DNA of 35,911 nucleotides, taken from positions 1 through 35,911 of the IMG/VR virus record IMGVR_UViG_3300026512_000001, one strand, 5' to 3'. The notes under the pieces were generated by a model. That model ran no database searches. It worked only from the letters and a program-made list of their open reading frames with translations, and was not told where the DNA came from. Source of the stretch: a virus. Shown here one piece after another: positions 1 to 35,911 of this stretch (position 1 is the stretch's first letter; each line of letters opens with the position of its first letter). The position numbers and the translations under genes were made by a program.

Positions 1-127
1 TAAAAGAGGTACAAGCACTCTCCAAAGAGGTTGTTAAACTCTCAAAAAGTTCTAAAAGTTCTGCAACAGATGTATCAAAATTATCAAAATCTTTTAGTTC
101 TCTCGGTGGTACACTTACGGCAGTAGC
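1..127. repeat. Terminal direct repeat, left copy (127 bp, same as 35785-35911)
   Basis: Exact identity of 127 bases with the right end. This equals a common assembly k-mer length and marks a circularly closing contig, not necessarily physical phage ends. Confidence 0.95.
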
Positions 128-3100
128 TGGGGGATTTACAGCATTTGAGGGTATAAAATTAGCTGTAGGGACTATTTCAGATTTTGAAAGTTCGATGGTG
201 AAACTCAAAACTGTTTCAAATGCAACGGCACAAGAATTTGAACTTTTAGAATCAACAGCTTTAAAAATGGGGGAATCAACAAAGTTTAGTGCGACAGAAG
301 CAAGTGAGGGTCTAAACTTCTTGGCTATGGCTGGATTTAGTGCAACTGATGCCGTTAAGGCTCTTCCATCAACTTTAGATTTAGCAGTTATTGGGAATAT
401 GGATTTAGCCCGTGCCACAGATATAGCAAGTGATTCACTCACGGGATTTGGGCTTGAAGCTAGTGATATGGATAGGGTAGTCGATGCAATGGCAGTTACT
501 ATCACAAGTTCAAATACAACAGTGGAAGCTTTAGGGAGTGCATTTAGTAAAGTTGCTCCAGTTGCTAATGCGATGGGTATATCTGTAGAATCTACAGCTG
601 GAGCATTAGGAGTAATGGCTGATGCTGGTATTAAAGCCGAAGTTGCAGGAACAAATCTAAAAATAATTTTAAACAGACTAGCAACTGACAAAGGCTCTCA
701 AAAAGCGATGAAAGAGCTAGGTGTCGCAATTTATGACACTGAGGGCAATTTTAGAGGTTTAGAAAAAATTACGGCAGATTTAAAACCAGCCTTAGCAGGA
801 TTAGATGCACAAGCAAAGCAAACAGCCCTCAAAAAGATATTTGGGAGTGAAGCTATTGCAAGTGGTGCAGTTCTAATTGATAAAACAGAAACCTTAACTA
901 AAAGAGTAGAAGCCTTAAATTCTGCGAATGGTGAGGGTAAAAGAATAGCTAAAGAGATGAGTGATACATTAGACAACTCATTTAAAGCAATTTATTCAGC
1001 AGTTGAGGGGCTTATACTTTCAACTTCCAATGATTTACTTCCAATTATGAAAGATTTAACTAAGCAAACAGTAGAGTGGATTCGTTCGATTGATAAAAAA
1101 ACTATATCTGATTTCGCAGGTGGTGTAGCTAGTTTAGTAAAAGGTTTAGTTAGTTTAGCAAGTGGAATCGGTACTGTTATAAATTTTTTAGGAACTTTAG
1201 CAAGTAAATCAGTGGTTTTGAAAGCTGTTGCTGATGGTTGGGGAAAAATATTTGACCAACTGGGGCGATATACAAAAAGATTACAAGGCTCATACACACA
1301 AGAAACAACCAAAGCTATAATTTCTGCTAATCAATTAACTAAAGCCGTAGGGTCATTTGATGGGAATCAAGCTGAATTTAATAAGTTACAAAAATCGCTA
1401 AAAGATACAATTGAAGAGCAAACTGCCTTATCTGAAAAGATGCGAAATGACGACCCAGAATACTATGCAAAACAGATAAAAGCACTTGAAAAATCAACAT
1501 TAAAATTAACAAATCAATCTAAAATCCTAGCAGGACTAGACCCACACAAAACAGCAACGGCATCAGTTAAAGAGAGCATAAATGCCGATAAAGATAAAAA
1601 TAAATCTTTAAATACTGTTATAGCTAAAGAAAAAGAACTTACGGAAGCACAAAAAGGAAGTTTAGCTAAAACTATAGCAGATATAGGAAAGAGAGAATCT
1701 ACAGCTAAAACCTCGTTAGATAAGATGCTTTCAAATGAACAAAAACTTAAAAATGATTTAGTTAAATTAGAGGAAGAACTAGCGAACATAAGAAAAGGAT
1801 TCGCAAATAAAAGAGAGAATCTAGTATTTGACAATCAGCAGAAAATAGCTGATATTGAAGCTAAAGGGCTAGATGAACATGGGAAGTACATTGATGCACA
1901 AAAGAGAGCTGATGAAGCTTTATCCCTTGCTAAAAAGGCTTTATCTGATGGGGATTTGGCACAAGCTAAAAAATACCAAGCCGATTATTTATCTCTAATT
2001 CAAAGAGGGGCAGGGGACGAAATAAAGGTAGGGGATGAAATAAGATTATCTCAATCGCAAACAGCAGAAGAATATAAGAAAGACTTATTGACTGGTCAAT
2101 CTCTCTCAATTAATATTTTAAATAAAGAAGAAGCTGAGCAGATAAGAGTACATAATACTAAAATCAACAATAAAAAACTAGAAATTTCAATGATTAGAAC
2201 TCAAATTGAAGCTGAAAAAGCATTAATTACACAAATGGGCTTATTGATTGCACAAGCCACAGGTGCAAAATTTGAAATGGACTTTACGACAGTTGATGCT
2301 TCTTTAGCTAAACTAGATTCTGATATGGCTATCCTTGAATCTCAAAAGAGAACAGCAAATATTGAAGTAACAAGCGACACTACATTAGCTGAAACAAAAA
2401 TTGATACATTAACCAATACTACAAATGCAACGACACTCAAACCAGCATTTAGTTTAGATACTACACAAGCAAATGCGAAGGTAAAAGCAGTACAAACAGA
2501 AGCTAAACAGCCTATAGGCTCAACTTTTACGATGTTTGTTCGCGATACTTTGGATGGAGATTTAAGACCACTAAAAGCCGAAGCCGAAGCCCCTACAATG
2601 TCTATTTATTCAGTTGATACAGCTGAGGCAGATAGAAAAATTGTAGAGTTAAAATCTAGTGCAGGTTCAACGGTTCAAACAACTGTAAATATCGAAACTA
2701 CACAAGCTAATACAGAAACAGATGCACTTAAAACAGAGATAGAGCAACCTATAAACAGCACTCTAACAATTACAGATAATAAAACAGAGATTCAAGCTGG
2801 ACTTACAGAGCTTACAACTCCCACGGCTTCAATTCATACGATTACAAGTAATACAGCAGAAATACAAACCTCAAACCAAACACTAACAGAACCACTTGCA
2901 GAAGAACACACGGTTACTACAAATGTAAAAGATGTAGTTGCAGATATTCAAAAAATACAGACACCCACAGCCTCTACTCACAATATAACAGCAGATGCCA
3001 CACAACCAATTAACACTATAAAACAGCTTCAACAAAACACATCTAGTGTTCACACAGTTTATGTTCAAACAATAGAAACAAGTGCTACTGGTGGAGTAGT

Positions 3101-3464
3101 AGGTAGAACAGCTGTCGGCAAGTTCGCAACTGGTGGAGGTTACAAAAAGAGACGGGGAAAAATAGCAGGTCACGACTTAACAGGTCGAGATGATATTCCC
3201 TCGATGCTTACCCGTGGTGAATTCGTGCAAAAAGTTAGAGCCGTAGATTATTACGGAGTTGATTTTATGAAGAGGTTAAATAGCTTACAAGTTCCAAAAA
3301 GTGAGCTACAACTTGCAACTGGTGGGATTGTAGATACAAGTGCAGAACCATCAAAAAATATAAACTTATCTTTAATGATGCCTGACAATAAAACTCAATT
3401 TAGTATGCAAACAGACGAACAAATCGCTGGAGCATTAGAGCGATATATTCGTAAGATGAGATAA
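1..3464 (+). CDS. Tape measure protein (main part; 5' end lies at the other end of the window)
   Basis: This is the body of the phage tail tape measure protein, which sets tail length and helps DNA ejection. The frame is open from the first base and continues from 35595 across the circle junction, giving about 1217 residues. After the first internal ATG (195) there is a PhageMin_Tail-like region rich in small residues, then a hydrophobic stretch (around 1110-1200), a long charged coiled coil (about 1380-2260), Thr-rich 24-residue repeats (2757-3044), and a Gly-rich C-terminus with the 'SMLTRGEFV' type motif usual in tape measure ends. It directly follows the tail chaperone gene, the expected order. 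The ATG at 195 is an internal Met, not the true start. Confidence 0.93.
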   Translation, partial: KEVQALSKEVVKLSKSSKSSATDVSKLSKSFSSLGGTLTAVAGGFTAFEGIKLAVGTISDFESSMVKLKTVSNATAQEFELLESTALKMGESTKFSATEASEGLNFLAMAGFSATDAVKALPSTLDLAVIGNMDLARATDIASDSLTGFGLEASDMDRVVDAMAVTITSSNTTVEALGSAFSKVAPVANAMGISVESTAGALGVMADAGIKAEVAGTNLKIILNRLATDKGSQKAMKELGVAIYDTEGNFRGLEKITADLKPALAGLDAQAKQTALKKIFGSEAIASGAVLIDKTETLTKRVEALNSANGEGKRIAKEMSDTLDNSFKAIYSAVEGLILSTSNDLLPIMKDLTKQTVEWIRSIDKKTISDFAGGVASLVKGLVSLASGIGTVINFLGTLASKSVVLKAVADGWGKIFDQLGRYTKRLQGSYTQETTKAIISANQLTKAVGSFDGNQAEFNKLQKSLKDTIEEQTALSEKMRNDDPEYYAKQIKALEKSTLKLTNQSKILAGLDPHKTATASVKESINADKDKNKSLNTVIAKEKELTEAQKGSLAKTIADIGKRESTAKTSLDKMLSNEQKLKNDLVKLEEELANIRKGFANKRENLVFDNQQKIADIEAKGLDEHGKYIDAQKRADEALSLAKKALSDGDLAQAKKYQADYLSLIQRGAGDEIKVGDEIRLSQSQTAEEYKKDLLTGQSLSINILNKEEAEQIRVHNTKINNKKLEISMIRTQIEAEKALITQMGLLIAQATGAKFEMDFTTVDASLAKLDSDMAILESQKRTANIEVTSDTTLAETKIDTLTNTTNATTLKPAFSLDTTQANAKVKAVQTEAKQPIGSTFTMFVRDTLDGDLRPLKAEAEAPTMSIYSVDTAEADRKIVELKSSAGSTVQTTVNIETTQANTETDALKTEIEQPINSTLTITDNKTEIQAGLTELTTPTASIHTITSNTAEIQTSNQTLTEPLAEEHTVTTNVKDVVADIQKIQTPTASTHNITADATQPINTIKQLQQNTSSVHTVYVQTIETSATGGVVGRTAVGKFATGGGYKKRRGKIAGHDLTGRDDIPSMLTRGEFVQKVRAVDYYGVDFMKRLNSLQVPKSELQLATGGIVDTSAEPSKNINLSLMMPDNKTQFSMQTDEQIAGALERYIRKMR
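2757..3044 (+). repeat. Four 24-residue repeats in the tape measure protein
   Basis: Four consecutive units of exactly 72 bases start at 2757, 2829, 2901 and 2973, with a partial fifth at 3045. The protein pattern is roughly S-x-H-T-I-T, then a short acidic/amide helix-like segment, then T-P-T-A. DNA identity between units is low, so the repeat is old and held at the protein level. Further degenerate units may lie upstream (2380-2756). Confidence 0.7.
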
Positions 3465-9007: not shown

Positions 9008-9391
9008 ATGGCAACTGGTGATAAAACAATAATTGCAAGTAAAAATTATGTAGATACAGCTACTGAAAATATGGTGAAAGATGATGTAGCTACTACATTT
9101 ACAGCACCACAGAGAGTGTCTAGCACCAATGAAGATGATGGAAGCATAGATTTTAGAAATAGTAATGATTTCGATATAACTTTAGATGATGCAACAGATA
9201 TAACAGTAACTTCAATCGATGGTTGTGATGGTCAATCAGGAGTGATTGTGATTCACGATAGAGAGAACATTGACAGTTGGTCAGATGATTTTGGCTGGCT
9301 AGGTGATACTCCAGCAGATGAAACAGATTTAGGAATTTTTAGCTATAAAATTGTAGCAGGAAACTTATATATTGCAGAGGTAAAAAACTAA
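9008..9391 (+). CDS. Tail fibre segment-like protein (127 aa)
   Basis: Follows the 105-aa fibre-like gene by one base. Residues 30-125 carry 'FTAPQRVSSTNEDDGSIDFRNSNDFDITLDDATDITV' and a Trp-containing C-terminus, as in fibre tip domains of unknown fold. Stop overlaps the next ATG (TAATG). Fibre role inferred from sequence style and place. Confidence 0.65.
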   Translation: MATGDKTIIASKNYVDTATENMVKDDVATTFTAPQRVSSTNEDDGSIDFRNSNDFDITLDDATDITVTSIDGCDGQSGVIVIHDRENIDSWSDDFGWLGDTPADETDLGIFSYKIVAGNLYIAEVKN

Positions 9392-10300: not shown

Positions 10301-11262
10301 TGAGTGGAGGGAAAGGAGAATGTGATTTTAAAATATTATCAGATACAAATGCTGGGGATGATCCTAAAGATATTTGTGTTGATATAGATAGAGAAATAGC
10401 ATTTAATGTAGCTTATGGAAGTGATAGAGTATATATTACAGATATTAGTAATAGTTCTAATATAGAAAATATTTCTTTTTTTGACACGAGAGACGGTCCA
10501 GATCACTGTGAAATAGACTTAGTAAATTCTATTTTATATGTTTCAAATGCTGGGAAGGATTCCTTAGAAGCATTTGATGTATCTGATATAGATAATGTTT
10601 CTCAGCTTGGCTATGTAGATGGCATTGATGCAGCAAGAGGTATTGCACTAGATTTAGATAATAGTATCGCTTATGTTGCTGGGCAAAATGCAGATAAACT
10701 ATACTCAATCGATATTTCAGATTCTGCTGATATGTCGATAATTCAAGGTTTAAGTGGATTTGATGGTATAGAGGGTATAGTTTTAGATTTAGATAATAGT
10801 ATCGCTTATGTTACTGGGCATGATGCAGATAAACTATACTCAATCGATATTTCAGATTCTGCTGATATGTCGATAATTCAAGGTTTAAGTGGATTTGATG
10901 GTGCTTTACAACTAGAAATAGATATTGAGAGAAGTTGTGTTTTTGTCATTTGTTACCAATCAGATAAGTTATACTCAATCGATATTTCAGATCCTGCTGA
11001 TATGTCGATTTTAAGCAGTGTAGATATAGACTCTCCTCGATTTGGTATAGCATTAGATTTAGATAATAATATTGCCTATGTTCCGACTTATGGAGATGAC
11101 TTACTATATGCAATTGATATTTCAGATGTAAATAACATAAAAACTATACAAACACTTACAATTGGAGGTGATTTAGCTGGAGTTGCATTAGATTTAGATA
11201 ATAATATTGCCTATGTGTTATCTTACAGTGAAAATGATATAACCAGTGTGTGTATAAAATAA
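10288..11262 (+). CDS. Seven-bladed beta-propeller protein (LVIVD-like repeats, 324 aa)
   Basis: Seven units of exactly 45 residues start at residues 32, 77, 122, 167, 212, 257 and 302. Each has 'A-DLDN-IAYV' followed by 'D-LYSIDISD-ADMS', the pattern of LVIVD/NHL-type propeller blades. Seven blades close a ring, with the N-terminal 31 residues probably completing the last blade. No signal peptide. Located at the end of the fibre block, it is a candidate receptor-binding tip or secreted decoy. Blades 3 and 4 are nearly identical in DNA, showing recent duplication. Confidence 0.8.
   Translation: MFGMMSGGKGECDFKILSDTNAGDDPKDICVDIDREIAFNVAYGSDRVYITDISNSSNIENISFFDTRDGPDHCEIDLVNSILYVSNAGKDSLEAFDVSDIDNVSQLGYVDGIDAARGIALDLDNSIAYVAGQNADKLYSIDISDSADMSIIQGLSGFDGIEGIVLDLDNSIAYVTGHDADKLYSIDISDSADMSIIQGLSGFDGALQLEIDIERSCVFVICYQSDKLYSIDISDPADMSILSSVDIDSPRFGIALDLDNNIAYVPTYGDDLLYAIDISDVNNIKTIQTLTIGGDLAGVALDLDNNIAYVLSYSENDITSVCIK
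10651..10920 (+). repeat. Recent 135-bp tandem duplication within the propeller gene
   Basis: Units 10651-10785 and 10786-10920 differ at only three of the first 117 bases, while other blades differ much more. The exact 135-bp period (45 codons) keeps the frame, so blade number could change by recombination. Confidence 0.85.
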
Positions 11263-19822: not shown

Positions 19823-19897
19823 GCGAATATAGCTTAATGATAAAGCGATTAGCTTCCAGCTAGTAGATAGGAGTTTGATTCTCACTTATTCGCTCCA
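19823..19897 (+). tRNA. tRNA-Gly(TCC)-like gene with encoded CCA
   Basis: Acceptor arms GCGAATA and TATTCGC are fully complementary, with T then CCA at the end. D-arm GCTT-AATGATA-AAGC and anticodon arm ATTAG-CTTCCAG-CTAGT fit, giving anticodon TCC (glycine GGA/GGG). The T-arm (GGAG with loop TTTGATT) pairs only if one A is bulged, so the gene may be functional but degenerate. Its last 16 bases overlap the 3' end of the Mom-like gene on the other strand. Confidence 0.75.
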
Positions 19898-34271: not shown

Positions 34272-35015
34272 ATGGCAAATAAAGAATTTCTACAGATAAC
34301 TGGTGGTGAGGTTTTTATAGAAACTTACAATGCAGATGGTACACTAGCACCTATGATTTCATTTGGTAAAACGGATGAAATGGCTTTAAGTTCTGAAGTT
34401 GAAAAGATTGAACATTACGACACGGAATCATGCGAAACTGTCTTGGATGGAGAAGCTGTTGTATCTCGTACAGCAAATATATCTTTTACAACGGGAGAAG
34501 TTTCTCCAGATATGCTTGGTCGTGCTTACCTAGGAGAAGCAGTTACTACAACACAAACAGCAGTTGCAGATGATGACCAAACAGCAACAGGTGTTATAGC
34601 TGGTGGTAGATATAACCTTGGTGGTTATAGAAATGTTACAAGTGTAGTAGTTAAAAATGATGATGATTCTATTACTTATGAAGAGGGTATAGATTACAAA
34701 TTTGCTTCAAAAGCTGGTTATATTGTTATTGTATCGGGTGCAGGAATCGCTGATGGAGATGATTTAAATCTTACAGTTACAGCACCAGATGGCGAAGTTG
34801 CTACTATTGATGCAATGAAAAAAGATAGTTTAACAGCTAGAATCACTTTTAGTGGTTGTGCCTCTGTTGGTGAATCTAACGAGTATGTTTTTGAAAAAGT
34901 AAAACTACAAAGTGACGGTGATATTCAGTTAAAAGGTAAAGAATACACTACTATTTCTTTTAGTGGTTCTGTTCTTAAAACTAATGGTAAATATTTTACT
35001 GTTACAACTTACTAA
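34272..35015 (+). CDS. Major tail tube protein (247 aa)
   Basis: 'FLQITGGEVFIETYNADGTLAPMISFGKTDEMALSSEVEKIEHYDTESCETVLDGEAVVSRTANISFTTGEVSPD' fits the tail tube fold, and there is an extra beta domain in 125-160 ('NVTSVVVKNDDDSITYEEGIDYKFASKAGYIVIV'). No sheath gene exists in the window, so the tail is non-contractile. Ahead of the tail chaperone as expected. Confidence 0.85.
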   Translation: MANKEFLQITGGEVFIETYNADGTLAPMISFGKTDEMALSSEVEKIEHYDTESCETVLDGEAVVSRTANISFTTGEVSPDMLGRAYLGEAVTTTQTAVADDDQTATGVIAGGRYNLGGYRNVTSVVVKNDDDSITYEEGIDYKFASKAGYIVIVSGAGIADGDDLNLTVTAPDGEVATIDAMKKDSLTARITFSGCASVGESNEYVFEKVKLQSDGDIQLKGKEYTTISFSGSVLKTNGKYFTVTTY

Positions 35016-35070: not shown

Positions 35071-35343
35071 ATGATAGAATTTCCAACATATGAAGAGCAA
35101 GGCAAAGTTAAAGATTTAGAGTTTACTATTACAGATTTGAGTGTAAAGTTTTTTGATAAAGTAGATAAAGATAATTCACATTACAATGATTTTGAGATTT
35201 TAAAAGATGGTTCAAATCTTACAGATGAACAGATTTTAAGTTTGGGTGCTAGAACTAAAATCGAAATAGTTAATGCTATTTTAGACCTTACAAATCCAGA
35301 CCGAAACAAAACAGATAATGAAGAGGTGGACGGAAAAAAGTAG
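35071..35343 (+). CDS. Tail assembly chaperone, zero-frame product (G-like, 90 aa)
   Basis: Acidic, helical 90-residue protein ('IEFPTYEEQGKVKDLEFTITDLSVKFFDKVDKD') in the slot of lambda G, just before the tape measure. It ends at a TAG preceded by A_AAA_AAG, a top-class -1 slippery heptamer (35334-35340). See the fusion product below. Confidence 0.85.
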   Translation: MIEFPTYEEQGKVKDLEFTITDLSVKFFDKVDKDNSHYNDFEILKDGSNLTDEQILSLGARTKIEIVNAILDLTNPDRNKTDNEEVDGKK

Positions 35344-35579
35344 CAGAGTTAGTCGCTTTTTTAATCACAAAAGGACACCAAAATAGTTACTTATACAGAC
35401 TTAGATTCTTTCAAACTTGTTTAGAGGTAGCATACAAAGAAGATGAAAAATTAACAGCTAGAATCGGAATATCAAAGCATTATAAATTTGATACTCTCAA
35501 AGAGATTCTATATCCACCAATCAAAAAACAACAATCACACGAAAATAATATCGAAGCATTAGAAAATATTTTTAAATAA
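35071..35579 (+). CDS. Tail assembly chaperone, frameshifted fusion (GT-like, 169 aa)
   Basis: Joining 35071-35340 in zero frame with 35340-35579 in the -1 frame adds 79 residues without a stop, beginning VAELVAFLITKGHQNSYLYRL and ending NNIEALENIFK. That second part has no ATG at its start and would be unread without the slip. AGAGGTGG lies 5 bases before the heptamer and may stimulate slipping. GT-like chaperones hold the tape measure during tail building. The predicted junction is A_AAA_AAG; the slip rate is unknown. Confidence 0.85.
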
Positions 35580-35594
35580 AAAGGCGAAAATGTT

Positions 35595-35911
35595 ATGACA
35601 GATAACGAATTAAAAATCAGGATAACAGCAGAATCGAGTAAGGCAGTAAAAGAGATACAAGCACTCTCCAAAGAGGTTGTTGAACTCTCAAAAAGTTTTA
35701 AAAGTTCTGCAACAGATGTATCAAAATTATCAAAATCTTTTAGTTCTCTCGGTGGTACACTTACAGCAGAATCGAGTAAGGCAGTAAAAGAGGTACAAGC
35801 ACTCTCCAAAGAGGTTGTTAAACTCTCAAAAAGTTCTAAAAGTTCTGCAACAGATGTATCAAAATTATCAAAATCTTTTAGTTCTCTCGGTGGTACACTT
35901 ACGGCAGTAGC
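35595..35911 (+). CDS. Tape measure protein, 5' end
   Basis: True start of the tape measure gene: ATG at 35595 after AAGGCG. It runs to the window end in the frame that continues at 3-3464. The first 106 residues hold two 46-residue repeats ('TAESSKAVKE-QALSKEVV-LSKS-KSS' and so on). The overlap of 127 bases with the window start makes the join exact. Confidence 0.93.
   Translation, partial: MTDNELKIRITAESSKAVKEIQALSKEVVELSKSFKSSATDVSKLSKSFSSLGGTLTAESSKAVKEVQALSKEVVKLSKSSKSSATDVSKLSKSFSSLGGTLTAV
35625..35900 (+). repeat. 138-bp tandem repeat at the tape measure N-terminus
   Basis: Copies 35625-35762 and 35763-35900 differ at three bases only. The 46-codon period keeps the frame. Since the contig ends were joined inside copy 2, the true copy number may be higher than two. 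Confidence 0.9.
35785..35911. repeat. Terminal direct repeat, right copy (127 bp)
   Basis: See the left copy. Removing one copy gives a circle of 35,784 bp with one continuous tape measure gene. Confidence 0.95.

Follow-up and report, generated by a model that had tools for sequence, protein, structure and literature searches.

Lambda-type tail assembly chaperones, in which a G protein and a frameshifted GT protein are made from one gene pair, are covered by an established literature (Levin 1993; Xu 2004, 2013, 2014). For basic biology, the G/GT frameshift is an ordinary and well-understood device. G–T frameshifting is conserved widely (PMC5009743), and A_AAA_AAG is the most shift-prone among the heptamers compared in E. 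coli (PMC5009743). Within the Casjensviridae, the chaperones of Chi (gp23/24), Saba, Suzuki, AH2 and RcPutin are annotated as joined frameshift products. In the records of AchV4, SS2019XI and V18 (L002, L048 and L049) the T frame is either given as a small ORF of its own or overlooked, and the join is unannotated. Here we describe a G/T gene pair in a viral contig of 35,911 nucleotides (IMG/VR record IMGVR_UViG_3300026512_000001), the whole of which we call the window. The pair is almost certainly a lambda G/GT-type programmed –1 frameshift of a siphophage tail assembly chaperone, in which slippage would join the two halves.

The pair lies between the genes for the major tail protein and the tape measure protein (Table 1). 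Read from the sequence, the G frame ends GAG GTG GAC GGA AAA AAG TAG, with the slippery heptamer in frame with G in the phase X_XXY_YYZ and the stop codon adjoining it directly. The –1 frame opens at 35322, giving a 19-nt overlap with G ahead of the G stop, and after a slip it would continue as T for 79 residues (VAELVAFL...NIFK) to a stop codon at 35577–35579. ATG, GTG and TTG are all absent from the T segment, and 15 nt (35580–35594) separate its end from the tape measure ATG at 35595. An earlier note on this DNA had proposed a 90-codon ORF ending in A_AAA_AAG then TAG, followed by a –1 reading from 35340 of 79 codons without ATG that stops 15 bases before the tape measure ATG; the first description is exact to the base, and the second is exact as well.

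Table 1. Features of the chaperone locus and its neighbours in the window.
Feature	Position	Strand	Basis
G, tail assembly chaperone, zero-frame product, 90 aa	35071..35343	+	leave-one-out G profile; predicted fold
Slippery heptamer A_AAA_AAG, TAG immediately after	35334..35340	+	sequence; equivalent A-rich in-frame sites in L018, L020, L022, L023, L009
T, –1 extension, 79 codons and stop, without own start	35340..35579	+	leave-one-out and Casjensviridae T profiles; A4 alignment
AGAGGTGG, Shine-Dalgarno-like, putative 5′ stimulator	35322..35329	+	anti-SD match
Major tail protein, Ig-like, PHROG 807 (Chi-like/Casjensviridae type)	34272..35015	+	PHROG 807 E 2e-37; tblastn
Tape measure protein gene, start	35595..35784	+	ORF; 127-bp end overlap; continues at 1..3464
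Tape measure protein gene, remainder	1..3464	+	PhageMin_Tail PF10145 E 4e-54; PHROG tape measure families

Over the 240 nt after the G stop, an equally long open –1 frame was found in 11 of 5000 dinucleotide shuffles. We also scanned both strands of the whole window, requiring three things together: an ORF no shorter than 60 aa, a –1 extension no shorter than 60 codons, and an X_XXY_YYZ in frame and no further than 30 nt from the stop. This combination occurred 3 times in the real window, once as the G/T pair, against 0.017 times per shuffled window.

G, T and GT gave no match above noise in Pfam, PHROGs or NCBIfam, and the GT protein found no matches in viral_contigs and no convincing match among annotated phages. 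In the absence of a family-library match or a convincing single-sequence match, the case rests on comparison. Searches of viral_contigs with the tape measure and major tail proteins returned no matches either, and relatives were therefore reached through the terminase. From these relatives we built leave-one-out profiles, excluding the window sequence, and ran them against the 447 segments of the six-frame translation of the window. Window G was the best of all segments for the G profile (E 4e-8), and window T was the best for the T profile (E 2e-8).

The T domain also links the window to the Casjensviridae. The motif V-A-x-L-x-x-x-G-H-x-x-x-x-x-Y-R-x-x-F-F carried by T has a counterpart, V-S-x-L-x-x-x-G-H-x-x-A-x-x-Y-P, in Casjensviridae T. 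A Casjensviridae T profile ranked window T first among the six-frame segments (E 0.025) and ranked the T frame first in 5 of the 6 relatives tried (L018, L020, L023, L009 and L012); in the more distant L007, the T frame was not top-ranked. The reverse T profile placed the chaperone –1 frame first in all seven Casjensviridae stretches. The E-values of these reciprocal T-profile searches are singly weak (1.7e-4 to 0.66), while their agreement is consistent. An hhalign comparison of T with Casjensviridae T gave P 4e-4 over 32 columns, with a probability of 34%. Homologues of the –1 segment, for which the earlier note had proposed a search, are thus present, as seen in the A4 alignment, the leave-one-out T profile and the Casjensviridae T profiles. 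For G, the Casjensviridae profile ranked the window protein second (E 0.27), with no clear sequence match.

Terminase searches yielded 39 loci. In five contigs the major tail protein is homologous and the sequence continues far enough beyond it for comparison as phages of the same tail type (L018, L020, L022, L023 and L009, the last from a Sulfurimonas MAG). In all five the major tail protein gene is followed by G and –1 T, whose overlap holds a slippery run in frame. The open –1 frame, whose loss in close relatives would have told against the frameshift, is kept together with a slippery run in every same-tail relative found, although the major tail proteins of these relatives share only 26–40% identity. 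The tape measure gene is next after T in L018, L023 and L009; L020 ends before the tape measure and L022 ends inside T. The slip site is A_AAA_AAG in L018, overlapping A_AAA_AAA and A_AAA_AAC in both L020 and L022, A_AAA_AAA inside a run of 9 A in L023 (L023:7831-7839), and a run of 10 A in L009 (L009:9197-9206). Six further terminase relatives, with other tail modules, have a –1 pair and, in frame, an X_XXY_YYZ heptamer, namely A_AAA_AAG in L012 and L025, G_GGA_AAG in L007, L013 and L016, and A_AAA_AAC in L036; these lend weaker support because the choice of G and T was made by eye among listed ORFs, before the search for the heptamer. A stop codon directly 3′ of the heptamer, as in the window, is also found in L009, L012, L020 and L025.

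This variety of slip sites bears on how the two halves are joined. It is very unlikely that G and T are joined at transcription, by an RNA polymerase that slips within the A run, and not by the ribosome, given that the window, L018, L012 and L025 carry A_AAA_AAG with 6–7 A, a classical tandem tRNA-Lys slip site and a length that is short for polymerase slippage. In favour of the polymerase, slippage is plausible at lengths such as the 9 A of L023 and the 10 A of L009, and transcriptional slippage is known from Thermus dnaX (PMC5009743). We also consider a mixed reading improbable: within one phage family, the chaperone join may have drifted from A_AAA_AAG (6 A, ribosomal) to the runs of 9–10 A in L023 and L009, with polymerase slippage replacing the ribosomal mechanism or adding to it. 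At the A_AAA_AAG end of this series, where the stop follows directly and a 3′ stimulator is absent, slippage would be ribosomal. If the drift were true, these phages would form a natural series from translational to transcriptional recoding with the protein outcome unchanged.

There is scarcely any probability that T is a separate gene whose translation begins anew past the G stop, whether through reinitiation or at a rare start codon. T does follow the G stop directly and contains ATC, ATA and ATT codons. However, besides lacking the three common start codons, it has its first rare-start candidate, the ATC at 35364, within the conserved VAFLITKGH motif, so that reinitiation there would lose part of the motif; moreover, in all relatives T lies at –1, overlaps the end of G and comes with an in-frame slip site. 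Finally, a –1 frame open by chance, or one gene split by a sequencing error, can be set aside: a single-base difference would merge G and T into one ORF and homopolymer errors are frequent, but five independent contigs, and likewise the annotated Casjensviridae frameshift products, repeat this –1 split at a slippery run, and such conservation rules the idea out; the shuffle count given above also speaks against it. Programmed –1 frameshifting by the ribosome is the reading that we retain.

We considered sequence elements that could stimulate the slip. The element AGAGGTGG has a best anti-SD pairing of –10.3 kcal/mol, with its 3′ end about 4–5 nt ahead of the heptamer, and an equally good match occurs in 6 of 350 random coding windows (about 2%). 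In E. coli dnaX, the SD element lies about 10 nt from the slip site. The Shine-Dalgarno-like element is not conserved in relatives: L025 lacks it, and the versions in L023 and L009 are weak. The acidic Glu/Gly-rich linker ahead of the slip site would alone yield purine-rich codons. Stimulation of slippage by AGAGGTGG is possible. Downstream, the 65 nt examined in the window hold no stem-loop beyond shuffles (–5.0 kcal/mol, z +1); 3′ structures well beyond shuffles were seen only in L009 (about z –4) and L016 (about z –3). The dnaX-like stimulator suggested earlier has weak support: its strong anti-SD match is real, but the element sits too near the heptamer and is not conserved. With no 3′ structure beyond chance, the locus does not fit a dnaX-like stimulated frameshift.

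Structure prediction agrees with the assignment of G. An AlphaFold2 model built on six G sequences (pLDDT 73) predicts a beta hairpin followed by helices. In the PDB it is most similar to 2OB9, the HK97 tail assembly chaperone (Z 6.1), and to YqbN 3KLU (Z 6.4), over 77 residues at an rmsd of 2.7–3.5 and 9–14% identity; Z in the range 6.1–6.4 is on its own only suggestive of a TAC fold, which is concordant with synteny. Foldseek returned E-values of about 1 in PDB and 2e-3 in BFVD, where the first match is a tail assembly chaperone. The model of T alone was poor (pLDDT 61).

The genome around the pair is that of a phage with a lambda-type portal, a fused protease/major head protein, a cement protein and the PHROG 807 major tail protein, all 5′ of G/T. 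With the major tail protein as query, tblastn matched 225 phage records, mostly Casjensviridae. The ends of the window are identical over 127 bp (35785–35911 = 1–127), from which it follows that the contig is circular and that the tape measure gene crosses the join. A terminase relative with 65% identity sits in the Sulfurimonas MAG (contig L009), which makes a Sulfurimonas-like bacterium the probable host; that MAG gave 6 tRNA matches only. Sulfurimonas phage SNW-1, the sole isolated Sulfurimonas phage found, was set aside as a comparator as its P2-like contractile tail is of a different type.

Several other features of the window were recorded. The start of the tape measure gene carries a 138-bp tandem duplication (35625–35907, 97% match), of which the tape measure starts of L023 and L009 have one copy only, by eye. 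The leave-one-out G profile also matches the tape measure N-terminus (35580–35909, E 2e-4), probably through composition or coiled coil. Another ORF, at 9008–9391, ends GTA AAA AAC TAATG with an in-frame A_AAA_AAC directly ahead of its stop. The gene that follows begins with the ATG at 9391, has 188 codons and is in the –1 frame; as this gene has its own ATG, a second frameshift and a mere gene overlap are both possible. Downstream of the tail genes, 135-bp tandem repeats (10649–11009) lie within a 324-aa ORF, by appearance a repeat (propeller-like) protein. An Rfam tRNA match on the + strand (19823–19893, 40.7 bits, loop CUUCCAG, anticodon UCC, Gly) lies between minus-strand genes and was not called by ARAGORN.

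In the mechanism that we infer, a majority of ribosomes would translate AAA AAG and terminate at UAG, which yields the 90-residue G. A minority would slip back one base on A_AAA_AAG, with both Lys tRNAs re-pairing on AAA AAA; these ribosomes would pass the UAG and go on to translate the T domain of 79 residues, so that a GT of 169 residues results. By analogy with lambda, many G and few GT would cover the tape measure protein, binding it by their G part, T would recruit the major tail protein, and G and GT would depart before the tail is completed.

The locus indicates that the lambda G/GT strategy reaches phages of Sulfurimonas-like bacteria, with chaperones that are unrecognised by current family libraries. 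Automatic annotation would give G as a hypothetical protein and miss T entirely. Alignments A2, A4 and A5 could seed a family that closes this annotation gap.

Set against known systems, the locus resembles the E. coli dnaX cassette in its A_AAA_AAG and in having an SD-like element upstream, and differs from it in the 4–5 nt spacing, in the want of a strong 3′ stem-loop and in a –1 product that is longer, not shorter. HK97 gp13 (2OB9) and Bacillus YqbN (3KLU) share with window G the predicted hairpin-then-helices fold, a likeness in fold only at their low identity. The Casjensviridae chaperones (Chi gp23/gp24, Saba, AH2 and BcepNazgul type) are closer, having a homologous major tail protein, a T domain whose profile ranks window T first, and A_AAA_AAG in Chi, Saba, AH2, pCB2051-A and SS2019XI. 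Their G proteins are longer, with the heptamer about 54–108 nt ahead of the G stop and not directly before it as in the window, and with G similarity undetectable by sequence. Relative to lambda G/GT, the window proteins are shorter (90/169 aa), the slip site is A_AAA_AAG with the stop directly after, and the chaperone has no sequence match in family libraries. The two share the order major tail protein, G, –1 T and tape measure, a slip site of the form X_XXY_YYZ towards the end of G, and a T without its own start. The lambda G/GT arrangement proposed in the earlier note is therefore supported by synteny, the G and T profiles, the relatives and the TAC-like predicted fold, and the window chaperone is a sequence-divergent addition to an already well-known lambda-type arrangement.
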